Source: a bacterium (GTDB lineage: Bacteria; Verrucomicrobiota; Verrucomicrobiia; Opitutales; Opitutaceae). Taken from it: a DNA stretch of 33,949 nucleotides. Below, piece after piece: positions 23,103 through 30,586 of this stretch; position 1 is the first letter of the stretch, and each line of letters opens with the position of its first letter. The notes below the pieces were generated by a model. It was given only the letters and a program-made list of their open reading frames with translations, did no database searches and had not been told where the DNA came from. The position numbers and the translations under genes were made by a program. Location of the stretch: NCBI GenBank assembly GCA_021782105.1, contig JAJXVO010000009.1:1-33949 (forward strand), given 5' to 3'.

Positions 23103-25544
23103 TCAGGCTGCGGGGAGCTCCAGGACAAACCGCGCTCCCTTGCCGTGGCCTGCGCTGAACGCCTTCAGCGAGCCGCCCATTTCCCGGGCCGCGAGGGCCG
23201 CATTGTGGAGGCCGTAGCCGTGCCCACCCTTCTTGGTTGTGAACCCGAAATTGAAGATGCGGACGAGATTCTCGGCGGCGATGCCGGGGCCGCTGTCCTC
23301 GACGGATACCTCGACGAAACCACTGCGGCCGGGTTTAACGCTGAGTTGCAGCTGGCGTCCAGCCTCGGGGATATCGTCGAGCGCCTCCTTTGCGTTGCGG
23401 ATCAGATTCGTGAGGATCTGCACGGCCTTTTGCCGCTGGGCGCGCACGTTGGCGGCTTGGGCGTAGTCTCGGGTGACGCGTATGCGGTGGCGCGCGAGCG
23501 AGGCCTCGGCGAGGCGCAGCGAGAACTCAAGCAGCTCAAGGGGGGACAGCTCCTCGACGAGCGTCGATACCTGAGCGTGGCTTTGCTGCGCAGCCACAAT
23601 CTCGTTGATGTGTTCGATCATGCCGCGAAGCCCCTCGAGTTCGGCGAGCATGCGTTTCTGTTCGTCCTCGAGGTGTGTCCCAAGCTGGGCGAGATAGGGG
23701 ACGACTTGGGCGCCTTTCGGATCCTCGGTCAGGAAACGCGGGAGATCGGCTGCGTGTTCGCCGAGCGTCCGCGCGATCCGTGACACGCCGGGGAGTTTGG
23801 AGCCGCGAGCGACGTCGATGGCGAGGCTGCAGGAGGTGTTCACGCTGTTCAGCGCATTGCCGATATTGTGCAGCACACCGGTTGCCATCTCGGCGAGGCC
23901 CGCGAGGCGGGAGGTTTCGACCAACTCCGCGTTGGCTGTCGAGAGTGCGCCTTGCAGGCGGGCGGCGCGCAGGGCGACGGTGAACTGGCGCACCAGATCG
24001 ATCGCGTGGGGAAGAAATTCGGATTCTGCGTCGAACACGGCGATACCAAGGGTCTCCTGCCCGTGCATCATGGGGAGCGTAAGCCACGAGCGTTGCGGAT
24101 GGCTGGCCTCCACGAGTTCCGGGGTGTAGCGGTCGCACGCACGGCCGCCGGCTGCCGCACCGCCCGGCGCAGGGGGCCAATCGTACCAGAGGCCCTGAAC
24201 CTCGCCGCCCTGTTCGTCGGGGGCGTGAAGATAGAGGCCCGCTCGGAGCACGCCCAGATTGCGCAGCGTGCCCTGCATGGTTTCGAGAATGGTTTCCTCT
24301 TTTGCCTCGGCAAATGGCAACTCCCGCAAATGCACTGTCGCGCCGTGGTAGCGAAGCGCCGTGTCGGCCTCCCGTGTATGTTCGTTGAAAAATGCCGTCG
24401 TCAGCAGCCCCAGCGTGGCGTCGATCGTGGCGGGTGGGGCCAGTCTGAGCCCGTCATCCGCCCCGGTTCCGGGCAAATTGTCCCTGGTCAATAGCGAATA
24501 AAGACATCCCGGGCTGAGTCCCATGTGCTCCACTTCAAAAAGCAGCTCGCGCATGGTTTGGAGGAAGGACTCGTGCGAAGTGGAGGTCTGGCCGAGTCTC
24601 GACAGGAGTTCGGCCGCGTGGGCATCGCCGCGGAGCAGGTCGAGCTGACTGTCGTACAAGAAGCGGTGTTCGAGGTAATCGGATCCCAGGGGATGGGACC
24701 GGCTGGAATCGCCCTCGCTTTCCCAAGTGCTCAGCCGCGGGACGAAGCGGGCGGGCACAATGCTTTCGGATTGAAAAGGCTCCTTGCGCACGATGTGGCC
24801 CAGCGCGGTGCAGGCCTGATAGCCCATCTGGTAGAGCCCTGTGTCGAAGGTGGAGAGCGGAGGCTGGCTCCAATGCGTGGCTGGGATGTTGTCGAATCCC
24901 GACACCTCGACATCGGCTCCAGGGCTCAACCCGGCCTCAGCCAGGGCGCGCATGGCCCCGAGGGCGCTCAGGTCGTTTGCTGCGATCAGAGCGGTAAAAT
25001 GCACCTCGCGGGCAAGTGCGTCCCGAACGGCCTCATAGGCCACGCGCTCTGTGTAGTCGCCGCGGATCAGAAGCGATTCTTCGATCTCCAGACCACATTC
25101 GTCGAGTCCCTGCCAGTAGCCGGACATGCGTTCCTCTCCGACGATGCTCTCGACGGTGCCCGCGAGGAAGGCGATGGACCGGTGTCCCTTTTCAACGTGG
25201 CTATGGACGAGCTCGCAGATCGCGTCGGTGTTGTTGTTGATGACGCAGGGAACGTCTCCGACTTTGCGCGCGACCAGGACCACGGGTCGGCCCTCGTCGT
25301 GAAGCTGCTTGCCGAGATTCTGAAGCAATCGACCGGGCGATGCAAAAATGAGGCCATCGCACTCCAAGGCGCTTTTCCCGAAGTAGTTGAAGATCAGGTC
25401 ATCACTGAGAGAGGCGTAGGCCTCTTCGCTGGGAAATCCGAGGATGCGAAGGGAGACTTGCTGGCGGCGTGCGGCGTCGAGGGCGCCGCGGGCTACGAGC
25501 CACATCTTGGGATCCTCGAGTTGGATAACAAGGGCTAGCGTCAT
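23103..25544 (-). CDS. LacI-type sensor domain / GAF-like / histidine kinase fusion
   Basis: The start chosen is the ATG of MTLALVIQLEDPKMW (813 residues). Residues 1 to about 285 match the effector-binding fold of LacI/XylR regulators: KGHRSIAFLAGTVES, ERMSGYWQGLDECGLEIEE, FTALIAANDLSALGAMRAL, VEVSGFDNIPATHWSQPPLST. No helix-turn-helix precedes it and no signal peptide or membrane segment is present, so it should be cytoplasmic. Residues about 310 to 520 hold a GAF-like region (SWLTLPMMHGQETLGIAVFD). The kinase follows with an atypical H-box EMATGVLHNIGNALNSV (His near 557), N-box NLIRNAKEAL (about 713), DSGPGIAAENL and GHGYGLHNAALAAREMGG. No receiver domain or partner regulator gene is seen in the window. 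It is divergent from the ECF sigma gene. Confidence 0.85.
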   Translation of the reverse strand: MTLALVIQLEDPKMWLVARGALDAARRQQVSLRILGFPSEEAYASLSDDLIFNYFGKSALECDGLIFASPGRLLQNLGKQLHDEGRPVVLVARKVGDVPCVINNNTDAICELVHSHVEKGHRSIAFLAGTVESIVGEERMSGYWQGLDECGLEIEESLLIRGDYTERVAYEAVRDALAREVHFTALIAANDLSALGAMRALAEAGLSPGADVEVSGFDNIPATHWSQPPLSTFDTGLYQMGYQACTALGHIVRKEPFQSESIVPARFVPRLSTWESEGDSSRSHPLGSDYLEHRFLYDSQLDLLRGDAHAAELLSRLGQTSTSHESFLQTMRELLFEVEHMGLSPGCLYSLLTRDNLPGTGADDGLRLAPPATIDATLGLLTTAFFNEHTREADTALRYHGATVHLRELPFAEAKEETILETMQGTLRNLGVLRAGLYLHAPDEQGGEVQGLWYDWPPAPGGAAAGGRACDRYTPELVEASHPQRSWLTLPMMHGQETLGIAVFDAESEFLPHAIDLVRQFTVALRAARLQGALSTANAELVETSRLAGLAEMATGVLHNIGNALNSVNTSCSLAIDVARGSKLPGVSRIARTLGEHAADLPRFLTEDPKGAQVVPYLAQLGTHLEDEQKRMLAELEGLRGMIEHINEIVAAQQSHAQVSTLVEELSPLELLEFSLRLAEASLARHRIRVTRDYAQAANVRAQRQKAVQILTNLIRNAKEALDDIPEAGRQLQLSVKPGRSGFVEVSVEDSGPGIAAENLVRIFNFGFTTKKGGHGYGLHNAALAAREMGGSLKAFSAGHGKGARFVLELPAA

Positions 25545-25682
25545 GTGCGGGTGGAGGAGGCGCGTTGGATGCGTCGAAGAACAAAGAAATAAAAAAGACC
25601 GGAAGGCGACGGGGAAATACCCCAAAAAGGAGACGAAAGCCGCTTGCTCTGAGTTGGGATGCGCTTTTACTGAAGATCGACT

Positions 25683-27107: not shown

Positions 27108-27800
27108 TCAGGCGGTGCGGGTGCGCCGCATCAGGTGGGCGAGGATGAGCGTGAAGAACACGAGCACGAGATTCTGCATGGGCAGCTGCAGGGCGGGAGG
27201 CAGCGAATAGATGATCGTCACCGCGGGCAGCCAGACGGCCAGGTTAGAGATCAACGGGGTGAGCACGCGACGGCTGTACCAGCGTCCGGAGCGGAGATCG
27301 GCGGAGACGGCTGACAAGCTGAATCCCGATTCGCACCAGAAATAGACGAGGACGGTCAGGGGAATTGCCAGGATCGGGCTGTAGAGGAATTGATCGGCGA
27401 GCGTCTTGAGGGCGACGGTGGCGGGGCTGTGTCCCTGGCCGAAGAGGATTCCGACCGTGCGATACCACAGATCGACCTCTATGCCCTTGTAGGCCCAGAA
27501 GGCGGTGATGACGGAGCCGAAAGCGACGGAGGGTCGATATGCGGCGGGGGCAAAGGTGCGGAGGTAGAGAAAGGGGATCACGCCGCCGCAGAGGGCGGTG
27601 GAGACCATGCTGAAGCGCAGGCCGGTGGCGGAGCGAAATTCGGCCAGGTGTTCGAGGGCCTGGTTGACCGGCGGGGAGAAGTAGAAGGCGTAGACAATTG
27701 CGAGGGCGGAGGCCTGAAGGATGAGTCCGGGCACGAGATTGGCCCGCGCGGCGTGGAGGCCTTCGCGAAGGGCGTTGGTGAGGGTTCTCGACAAGGACAC
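27108..27800 (-). CDS. small polytopic membrane protein, Mpv17/PMP22-like
   Basis: The tracked ORF begins inside the upstream reductase gene and reads through its terminator, so a downstream start is needed. The first in-frame start after the terminator is GTG at 27800, giving (M)SLSRTLTNALREGLHAARA and 230 residues. Four or five hydrophobic segments are present. The C-terminal half, VALKTLADQFLYSPI ... ISNLAVWLPAVTIIYSLP ... LPMQNLVLVFFTLILAHL, follows the order of Mpv17/PMP22 proteins (LK..DQ...P, then N...WPAVQ..NF..VP, then N/Q L..V.W...L). Similarity was judged by eye. The role is unknown. It is separated from the reductase by a terminator and faces the sigma operon. Confidence 0.6.
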   Translation of the reverse strand: MSLSRTLTNALREGLHAARANLVPGLILQASALAIVYAFYFSPPVNQALEHLAEFRSATGLRFSMVSTALCGGVIPFLYLRTFAPAAYRPSVAFGSVITAFWAYKGIEVDLWYRTVGILFGQGHSPATVALKTLADQFLYSPILAIPLTVLVYFWCESGFSLSAVSADLRSGRWYSRRVLTPLISNLAVWLPAVTIIYSLPPALQLPMQNLVLVFFTLILAHLMRRTRTA

Positions 27801-27862
27801 GTATCCAGCGGAGAGGCGCGCGGGGGCGGTCGCAAAGCAAATCGGGCATAATGGCTGAGGAC

Positions 27863-27895
27863 AAAAAAGGCCGGCCTCTCTACAGGGCCGGCCTT
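27863..27895 (-). terminator. intrinsic terminator after the ribonucleotide reductase
   Basis: Read on the minus strand, AAGGCCGGCC and GGCCGGCCTT form a 10-bp stem around a 9-base loop. It is followed by TTTT and GT. It lies about 20 bases after the reductase stop, which fits termination of that gene. The downstream membrane protein then needs its own promoter or read-through. Confidence 0.88.
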
Positions 27896-27916
27896 GCAGG
27901 ATGAAGAAAAGAGGTT

Positions 27917-30412
27917 TCAGCCCGAGTGGATGATCTCGCAGGCGCCGCCGGCGCAGGCGACGGCCTCCTTGAGTTTGGTCTCGTCGGACTTCTCGCTGAG
28001 CTGCGTGTAGTCGATTTCGACATACTTCAGGCGGTTCCACTTCACGATATCGTCCTCGGTGGTGACCTCCTCGCGGGGGGCCTGTGCGTAGCGCTTGTCG
28101 CCGTCGTGGGCGAGCAGCGAGATGCCTGTGAAGAATTCGCGATTAGTCCAGATGAAGCTGCCGACCTGGTCCCACTCGTCTGGGCGCACCGTGCAGGTGT
28201 TGGATACGTTGTGGTGGAGGCCGGGGGAGCGGCTTTCATCGGCGGTGCCGATCTGGACCCAGTGCTGCTGAACAAGCTTTACGAACTCGAGGAAATCGAG
28301 GGCGGAGAGTTCGTCGCGGAGGATGGCTTCCTTGGGGGCTTCCACGGGGAAGGTGATGACATCGTCGGCATCCGGGTTATAGACCGAGGATTCGGTCATG
28401 TGCGGATTGTTGTTCCGGAAGTGCAGGTAGACCGGATCCTTTCGGTTGGCCTGGACGCGGCGGAAGTAGCGGCGGGCGTGGTGCGGGTGGATGCCGGAGC
28501 CGGCGCCGAGGAGGAGGGACGCGGTGCCTTCCGGTTTGACGCAGGTGAGGCGGGCCGCGGAGCGGATGCCGAGGAGGTGGGCGACGAGGCAGTTGGCGAC
28601 GCGCACGAGGAGGGCGCCGCGTTCGAGGGTGGCCGGGTTAAAGAGCACCTCCGGGTTGTCCATCATGCCGCAGATGGAGACGCCCAGGAGGGCGTCGCGT
28701 TCATTGAGGAAGCGGGTGACGGGCCCGAGGTAGGGCATCTTCGTGTAGGCGGCCTGGAGGGTGCCGATGATGGCGGCGTGCAGGCAGGCGTCGAGGAAGA
28801 GCTCATCGTTGGTGGCGATGGCACCATTGATCGTGGTGAGGTTGCACATCTGCCAGCCGGACAGGCGGGTGTCGGGTCCGAGTTCGCCCTCGTAGCCGAT
28901 GGAGCGGAGATGTTGGGCGTCCTGTTCGGAGATGGGGCCCTGGACGACGGGGTGCAGGCCGATTTCGCAGCAGGGATTGCAGCCGAACTCGAGGTCGTTG
29001 GTGAAGTAGAAGCCGGGCTCTCCGAATTCCTTCTGGGCCTGGAAAAGCTTGCGGAAAGTCTCCTCGTCGTTGGAGCCGCGCAGGATGATTGCGGAGTTGT
29101 TGGAGGCGGAACGCTGCGGGTGCTTGGCGAACCAGTCGCCTGTCTTGGCGGTCATCATCTCCTCATCGTCGGAGGAGAAAAGGCAGATCGTCGCCGAGCG
29201 GCGGATACCGCCGGAGAGCACGGAGCGTGCGACATGCATGCAGATGTCGTAGACCTCGATGGGCCGGAGCTTGCGGCCGCCGGCGCCGGCGAGGATACGC
29301 TCGGTTTCAGCGAGGGCCTGCTTGAAGGGGAGGTGGCCGGGGGCCTTGCCGCCGGAGGTTTTGAGCGCACTGCCGCGCGGGCGGATCTTGGAGAAATTGA
29401 ATTCGACCTTGTAGCCCTCGATGTAGCTCTTGAAGAGCTCGATGAGGCCGTCCGACCAGCCCTCGATGGTATCGGCGACCTCGAAATGCTTGACGGTGAG
29501 GTCGAGTTCCCGGCCGCGGACGGGAAGGGAGGGCAGGCGGCCGACGTGTTGCTTCTGGACGGAGAAGCCGCAACCGGTGCCGGAGAGCAGGAGGAAATAG
29601 TATTCGCCAAAAAACTCCACGCGGTCGGCTGGGCTGTAGGCGCAGTTGAACATGCGCGAATGGTTGCGGAGGATCGCGATGCCGCCGAACTGCAGCGAGC
29701 GCATCGAGGGGAGGACCTTGCGGGCGCGGACGGCGTCGAAGGAGCGGGTGATCAGGTTGCCCAGGGACTGTCCGAGGAGCCACTCGCCGATGCGCTGGCG
29801 GTCGGCGCCGGTTATGAGGCTGGAGAGTTCGGGCGGGAGGATCTCGGGGATCTTGGTGTCGAGTTTGTCGTAGAAGTGGTCGAGGTGCATCTGGGCTACG
29901 CGGGCGACGGCCTCACCATAGGTTTCGCGGCGCAGGAGCTCGGGGCGGTAGCGGGCGTACTTGGAAACGGCGATGTAATCGGCGAGGCCGTTGTCCTCGT
30001 ACTTGGCGAGGCGGCGCTCGGCCTGACGCTGGCGGTAAATGATGTAGCTCTTGGCGACCTCGAGTTCGCTCTCGGTGGCGATGGCTTTTTCGACGATGTC
30101 CTGGATCTGCTCGATCGAGGGGTAGCGATTGGCGCGGTAGACGAGTTCGATCATCTGCTTGGCGCGCTCGGTGATCGCCATGGCCTTCATGAAGGTGGCG
30201 GTGTCGACGCCGTAACGTTTGGTGACGTCGTCGCGGTCGGGATTGGGGGCGCCATTGGTCTGGACGTCGTAGTAGGCGAGTACGATGGCGCGCGTGATTT
30301 TGGCGGCGTCCCAGGGAACGAGACGGCCATCACGTTTGACGACGAGCCGCTCGCGAGGAGCGGAGGGAGGAGCGAAACGACGGAGGAGGGCGGATGCTGG
30401 AGAGGCGTTCAT
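27917..30412 (-). CDS. adenosylcobalamin-dependent (class II) ribonucleotide reductase
   Basis: The enzyme makes deoxyribonucleotides using the adenosylcobalamin radical and needs no oxygen. The 831-residue product has an N-terminal ATP-cone (RLVVKRDGRLVPWDAAKITRAI..., about residues 22 to 120) that provides allosteric dATP/ATP control. The catalytic barrel contains MRSLQFGG, MFNCAYS (Cys near 257), LLSGTGCGFSVQ, SGGIRRSATICLF, and NPCCEIGLHP near residue 480, which supplies the radical-site Cys and Glu. VKPEGTASLLLGAGSGIHPHHARRYFRR comes later, and the C-terminus has CAGGAC, probably the redox-active cysteine pair. These residues fit the monomeric RTPR-like branch of class II. No small-subunit or nrdG gene is adjacent. 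Two NrdR-like boxes precede it. Confidence 0.9.
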   Translation of the reverse strand: MNASPASALLRRFAPPSAPRERLVVKRDGRLVPWDAAKITRAIVLAYYDVQTNGAPNPDRDDVTKRYGVDTATFMKAMAITERAKQMIELVYRANRYPSIEQIQDIVEKAIATESELEVAKSYIIYRQRQAERRLAKYEDNGLADYIAVSKYARYRPELLRRETYGEAVARVAQMHLDHFYDKLDTKIPEILPPELSSLITGADRQRIGEWLLGQSLGNLITRSFDAVRARKVLPSMRSLQFGGIAILRNHSRMFNCAYSPADRVEFFGEYYFLLLSGTGCGFSVQKQHVGRLPSLPVRGRELDLTVKHFEVADTIEGWSDGLIELFKSYIEGYKVEFNFSKIRPRGSALKTSGGKAPGHLPFKQALAETERILAGAGGRKLRPIEVYDICMHVARSVLSGGIRRSATICLFSSDDEEMMTAKTGDWFAKHPQRSASNNSAIILRGSNDEETFRKLFQAQKEFGEPGFYFTNDLEFGCNPCCEIGLHPVVQGPISEQDAQHLRSIGYEGELGPDTRLSGWQMCNLTTINGAIATNDELFLDACLHAAIIGTLQAAYTKMPYLGPVTRFLNERDALLGVSICGMMDNPEVLFNPATLERGALLVRVANCLVAHLLGIRSAARLTCVKPEGTASLLLGAGSGIHPHHARRYFRRVQANRKDPVYLHFRNNNPHMTESSVYNPDADDVITFPVEAPKEAILRDELSALDFLEFVKLVQQHWVQIGTADESRSPGLHHNVSNTCTVRPDEWDQVGSFIWTNREFFTGISLLAHDGDKRYAQAPREEVTTEDDIVKWNRLKYVEIDYTQLSEKSDETKLKEAVACAGGACEIIHSG

Positions 30413-30521: not shown

Positions 30522-30537
30522 CCACAATTAGTTGTGG
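30522..30537 (-). promoter_or_regulatory. NrdR box 1 upstream of the ribonucleotide reductase
   Basis: CCACAATTAGTTGTGG matches the NrdR consensus ACACWATATMTWGTGT closely. It lies in a longer palindrome, GACCACAA-TTAG-TTGTGGTC. It is about 110 bp before the reductase start and 16 bp from the second box. NrdR would repress the reductase when dATP is abundant. Confidence 0.75.
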
Positions 30538-30553
30538 TCGCTGTCCGCCCTGA

Positions 30554-30569
30554 CCCCAATTAGTAGGGT
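30554..30569 (-). promoter_or_regulatory. NrdR box 2, overlapping the -10 region
   Basis: CCCCAATTAGTAGGGT is a second NrdR-like palindrome. Its centre is 32 bp from that of box 1, about three helical turns, the usual arrangement for cooperative NrdR binding. It covers the predicted -10 of the promoter, so bound repressor would block polymerase. Confidence 0.72.
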
Positions 30570-30586
30570 CTCTATTGAATCGTCAA
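30558..30586 (-). promoter_or_regulatory. predicted sigma-70 promoter of the ribonucleotide reductase
   Basis: On the minus strand, TTGACG (30586–30581) serves as -35. It is followed after 16 to 17 bases by ACTAAT or CTAATT (about 30564–30558) as -10. Transcription would begin near 30550, between the two NrdR boxes, giving a leader of roughly 135 bases. No cobalamin riboswitch was recognised in that leader. Confidence 0.55.

Follow-up and report, generated by a model that had tools for sequence, protein, structure and literature searches.

The described systems closest to the locus considered here are operators of the repressor NrdR. Loaded with ATP and dATP, NrdR assembles into a tetramer, which kinks the DNA on binding a pair of boxes spaced by about three turns, and with ATP alone it adopts nonbinding forms (PMC9110341, PMC12051234, PMC12176259). 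The NrdRs of four species bound best in vitro at spacers of 15-17 bp (PMC12051234), and in the Streptomyces NrdR-DNA complex the bend falls at weakly stacking A-T bases (PMC9110341). How does a candidate operator from the Opitutaceae, a family of the Verrucomicrobiota, compare with these systems? It consists of two boxes upstream of an nrdJ-type ribonucleotide reductase (RNR) gene, in a stretch of 33,949 nucleotides (the window) that makes up contig C86 of a 4.04-Mb assembly (431 contigs, ~91% complete). We assign it to this family because its closest named relatives are an Opitutaceae bacterium and further Verrucomicrobia/Opitutae genomes.

Like nrdRJ of Streptomyces coelicolor, known from cryo-EM (PMC9110341), the locus has a class II RNR preceded by a pair of palindromic 16-bp boxes lying about three turns from each other, boxes placed at the transcription start (a predicted one here), conserved G-C pairs in the box arms, and a regulator with the same contact residues. 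Unlike in nrdRJ, the box center is not ATAT-like, and nrdR—the first gene of the operon in S. coelicolor—lies elsewhere in this genome, without a pair of its own that we could find. With nrdHIEF, nrdDG, and nrdAB of Escherichia coli (PMC12176259) the locus shares a pair of 16-bp boxes, separated by 15-16 bp, and an NrdR made of a Zn-ribbon and an ATP-cone, whereas E. coli has class I and class III RNRs, encoded in three operons, where we find a single class II-type gene. The spacing (16 bp here) also resembles that of Listeria and Streptococcus NrdR sites, but the central A-A/T of the pattern used in that study (PMC12051234) is absent from the window pair and from most of the Opitutaceae boxes. 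The arrangement as such is already known from other bacteria, and what is new is a modest point, an Opitutaceae-specific variant of the box; full-text searches of the papers accessible to us found no study of NrdR boxes in Verrucomicrobiota. We read the two boxes as a predicted NrdR operator at the promoter of the only RNR detected in the genome, and we put the probability of this reading at about 0.92.

The reductase, the boxes, and the predicted promoter

Table 1. Features of the predicted operator and its target gene (window coordinates)
Feature	Position	Strand	Description
NrdR box A, proximal to gene	30522-30537		CCACAATTAGTTGTGG; minus strand CCACAACTAATTGTGG; predicted site
NrdR box B, distal	30554-30569		CCCCAATTAGTAGGGT; minus strand ACCCTACTAATTGGGG; 32 bp from box A; predicted site
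16-bp spacer between boxes A and B	30538-30553		read from the sequence
Predicted -35 element TTGACG	30581-30586	minus	TTGACC at the same place in G014; degenerate TTGCAC in G058
Predicted -10 element ACTAAT, weak	30559-30564	minus	inside box B; 16-nt spacer; 4/6 consensus match; identical in G014 and G058
nrdJ-type ribonucleotide reductase (RNR), 831 aa	27917-30412	minus	RTPR-like, N-terminal ATP-cone; predicted target gene
ATP-cone domain of reductase, residues 23-131	30020-30346	minus	PF03477, E=6.1e-14

The reductase gene lies close to the right end of the window. An earlier note on this DNA had called its product a class II RNR, and by homology this assignment is sound: the protein aligns to the RTPR structure 1L1L in three stretches (E=1.8e-28), with its C-terminal CxxxxC (CAGGAC) paired with CEGGAC of 1L1L. 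It does carry an ATP-cone, and its match to TIGR02505 of NCBIfam (E=4.5e-61, 206.9 bits) falls below the equivalog cutoff of 340.05, so we class it as RTPR-like and not as RTPR. A search of the whole genome for large subunits of class I (TIGR02506) and of class III (TIGR02487) had no match. The reductase thus appears to be the sole RNR of the organism, which, given the incomplete assembly, is likely but not certain; homology, together with the lack of a detected class I or III enzyme, suggests dependence on adenosylcobalamin. In a related Opitutaceae subclade the PF03477-bearing region is apparently absent from the reductase, with matches only from residue ~130, and the NrdR boxes are kept.

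Two other genes of the window deserve mention. An 840-aa protein (23103-25625, minus strand) combines a GAF domain and a histidine-kinase ATPase domain with sugar-binding domains of the LacI type, and no LacI DNA-binding domain was matched in it with Pfam or NCBIfam; by its domains it is predicted to be a sensor kinase whose ligand-binding part resembles that of a repressor. At its 3' end the reductase gene is overlapped, in a different frame, by a 310-aa ORF (27108-28040, minus strand) for which Pfam and NCBIfam gave no match; the true start of this ORF is probably further downstream.

The boxes lie 110-157 bp upstream of the reductase start. Their starts and their centers are both 32 bp apart, as the earlier note had it, and the spacer falls within the range preferred by all four tested NrdRs and within the 14-17 bp typical of operators. 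The description of both boxes as palindromes suits box A, with 14 of 16 positions symmetrical (18 of 20 when extended to GACCACAATTAGTTGTGGTC), better than box B, whose palindromy is weak (10 of 16). Their proposed match to the NrdR consensus likewise stands for the outer arms, including C4 and G13, which are present in both boxes, and fails at the center, which reads TTAG where the canonical box is ATAT-like. Because of this center, the canonical ACACAATATATTGTGT pattern finds no match in the window at three mismatches.

Is the pair unique? For scans of the window and the genome we used a pair pattern in which the four central bases of each box were free. This pattern matches once in the window, with no mismatches, and has no match in 100 shuffles at up to three mismatches. 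Across the 4.04-Mb genome, again at up to three mismatches, there is one match, a perfect one at the reductase, and one match for the reversed control. The genome scan for boxes that had been proposed thus places the sole pair upstream of the only detected RNR. Scanning for single boxes gave 36/42 matches vs. 108/106 for the control and is uninformative, which leaves the pair alone as diagnostic.

How does the pair sit relative to the promoter? NrdR operators stand in front of RNR operons and often cover the RNA polymerase site. A -10 element under a box, following a TTGACG -35, had been suggested from the sequence. TTGACG is present, separated by 11 nt from box B, and ACTAAT lies inside that box, but this -10 is weak and was missed by a consensus promoter scan requiring A at position 2, which reported no promoter. 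The spacing from TTGAC to the box is repeated in the sister genome G014 and, in a weaker form, in G058, and TTGACG stands 12-14 nt before box 1 at 15/15 nrdB promoters of relatives; all three comparisons support the overlap of pair and promoter. Since both the genus and the nrdB promoters repeat a -35 before the first box, we expect the two boxes to lie on either side of the transcription start. At most other Opitutaceae nrdJ promoters, TTGAC follows the first box by 0-1 nt (29/37), which would put the -10 under the second box. Judged by these predicted elements, the window's genus shares its promoter arrangement with the nrdB promoters, and it is speculation on our part that promoter exchange was the cause.

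Most nrdJ promoters of the family also have an AT hexamer (~TWATWA) at a fixed distance, 9-14 nt before box 1 (e.g., L022, L073, L031, and L071). Its conservation reaches 1.4 bits per position, with weaker conservation further upstream, and it is not evident in the window's genus. This hexamer may serve as a second -10, as an upstream element of the promoter, or as a binding site for an activator.

Conservation of the pair and its center

How widespread is the pair among Opitutaceae reductase genes? An earlier core pattern was too strict and missed most relatives; the scan reported here uses a matrix built from the first sites, combined with the spacing. It covered 68 nrdJ upstream regions of the Opitutaceae and found a pair in 37 of them, with scores from 23.4 for the weakest accepted pair to 42.7, compared with a best score of 15.0 among 680 shuffled upstream regions. 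Since the matrix was partly trained on the sites it scored, we base our reading on how far the scores exceed those of the shuffles and on independent lines of evidence, namely the spacing, TTGAC, and the nrdB pairs. The centers are 32 bp apart (a 16-bp spacer) in 32 of these pairs and 31 bp apart (a 15-bp spacer) in the other 5. C4 and G13—which we equate with the conserved G-C pairs described in PMC9110341—are invariant, in 68/68 tabulated nrdJ sites and 30/30 nrdB sites.

Within the window's genus the pair is found in all three testable members. The minus-strand sequence of box A is identical in the congeners G058 and G014, and the counterpart of box B is CCACTACTAATAGTGG in G058 and ACCCTACTAATAGGGG in G014, whose operator region reads ACCCTACTAATAGGGG-N16-CCACAACTAATTGTGG. 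Across the three congeners the box arms are kept and the spacers between the boxes have changed. The earlier note had held that its reading would fall if the boxes were not conserved at orthologous reductase promoters; they are conserved in 3/3 cases in the genus and, as above, in 37/68 in the family.

What sets the Opitutaceae boxes apart is their center. The family consensus is ~CCACWACCRGTWGTGG, and A-T occupies the two central positions in 4 of 68 tabulated nrdJ sites. The GTDB-wide search pattern of PMC12051234 demands a central A followed by A or T; it does not match the window pair, nor any of the 37 nrdJ or 15 nrdB pairs (0/52 together), and it matches 8/18 pairs from other families of the phylum. 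We treat this central A-(A/T) step as a search convenience and not as a defining feature of an NrdR box. It is possible, and we offer it tentatively, that the Opitutaceae NrdR reads operators with a non-A-T, often G/C, center (~CCACWACCRGTWGTGG). If true, either a central A-T step is not needed for the sharp bend of the Streptomyces complex or the Opitutaceae NrdR bends DNA differently; because that bend lies at A-T bases, the Opitutaceae boxes are natural operator variants for testing what bending requires. It would also mean that published box counts overlook whole families, since a GC-tolerant center escapes the published pattern and surveys of boxes may therefore undercount. An earlier profile-based survey (935 sequences) may include such sites.

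Boxes, nrdR, and class I operons

Does the genome encode a regulator that could bind the boxes? Lack of nrdR was the other outcome that the earlier note had set against its own proposal, and the gene is present (L001, C207:16398-16832), with 176.8 bits vs. a cutoff of 124.65. Its product has the CxxC motifs CPKC and CSEC and retains D15, R17, R26-R29, and R37 intact—residues that reportedly contact DNA in the Streptomyces structure (PMC9110341) and lie on the exposed outer face of E. coli NrdR (PMC12176259). The solved structures closest to the G000 NrdR protein are NrdR repressor entries. Autoregulation of nrdR was considered and rejected, as neither the genome pair scan nor the nrdR locus yielded a pair at the gene, which sits directly after an unrelated upstream gene.

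Across the family, nrdR was found in 133 of 150 Opitutaceae genomes. In a tree of 67 reductases, the genera g3 and g46 (seven genomes) fall into a single clade surrounded by box-bearing ones, and both nrdR and the boxes are absent in 7/7 of them; G009 also has neither. Exceptions occur on both sides. G123 and G139 have clear boxes at nrdJ and no detected nrdR, but these are multi-contig assemblies whose congeners have the gene, which makes a missing piece of assembly likely; the absence is probably an assembly gap, and otherwise the two are counterexamples. Boxes were not found in the scans so far of the nrdR-bearing G037, G132, G056, G069, and G113, and gaps in the assemblies or in the scanning may account for the exceptions on both sides. 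A Fisher test of nrdR against boxes gives P = 0.017, a rough guide only, as it ignores relatedness.

Where, then, do the boxes lie in nrdR-bearing genomes whose nrdJ is box-free? These genomes include most of a 14-row clade near the window's protein, and most of them carry a class I RNR. A 32-bp pair is found upstream of nrdB in 15/15 of those scanned, with scores of 18.0-32.8 vs. a shuffled maximum of 17.5; the lowest score is near that maximum, so the weakest pair rests on its position and shared flanks. G004 also has a pair at this place. In the nrdR-less G046, a class I RNR is present and boxes were not found there. Many genomes with a box-bearing nrdJ also have class I, so there is no simple either/or. 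An Rfam scan of 19 RNR and nrdR loci found no match to a cobalamin or other riboswitch. The box-free nrdJ clade (L004-L014, L016, L017, and L019) has a shared upstream element, ~ATGGTTAGCG, followed in several loci by TATNNT 17-18 nt later, and many of its members have a ATTTATGCGCA-like stretch upstream. These shared elements suggest that the class II RNR is under some other control where the NrdR boxes lie on class I.

Could the boxes instead be the operator of another repressor of Opitutaceae RNR genes, with NrdR acting elsewhere or only in part? The departure from the canonical center, the failure of the published pattern on all 52 pairs, and the two box-bearing genomes with no detected nrdR would fit such a repressor. 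We nevertheless consider it unlikely, because the 16-bp size, the invariant C4 and G13, the 15-16 bp spacer, and the association with RNR operons are NrdR traits, the boxes are absent from the nrdR-less clade, and related pairs with canonical centers occur in other families of the phylum. Control of the divergent fumarylacetoacetate-hydrolase-family gene (plus strand, from 30765), instead of or besides the reductase, is highly improbable. The boxes do lie in the intergenic region that the two genes share, ~110 bp away from the start of the reductase and with the other gene at ~200-260 bp, but across genera the pair lies upstream of nrdJ or nrdB, and the predicted -35/-10 faces the reductase and is repeated in congeners. 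The weak palindromy of box B and the weak -10 might suggest a palindrome that arose by chance, or a relic without a regulatory role. This is hardly credible given that the only pair in the genome is a perfect one, that three congeners have kept the arms despite changed spacers, and that box presence clusters on the reductase tree in a way far from random (8 changes vs. 22.2 in shuffles).

Proposed mechanism and meaning

How would an NrdR operator work at this promoter? By analogy with the described systems, we infer NrdR binding, repression, the start site, and dATP control here. At high dATP, an NrdR tetramer carrying ATP and dATP would, as in Streptomyces and E. coli, bind both boxes together. 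It would bend the DNA and lie over the -10 and the start of transcription; judged from the predicted -35 and -10, this start would fall between the boxes at ~30551-30552. As dATP falls, a change in its oligomeric state would release NrdR from the boxes and allow transcription of nrdJ; the ATP-cone of the reductase itself may provide further feedback, acting on the protein.

For the Verrucomicrobiota, these results provide a well-supported predicted regulatory link from NrdR to the only RNR detected in the genome. More is gained from the pattern across the family than from this one locus: in Opitutaceae the predicted operator pair stands at the class I operon, at the class II gene, or possibly at both, and it is gone in a clade without nrdR.
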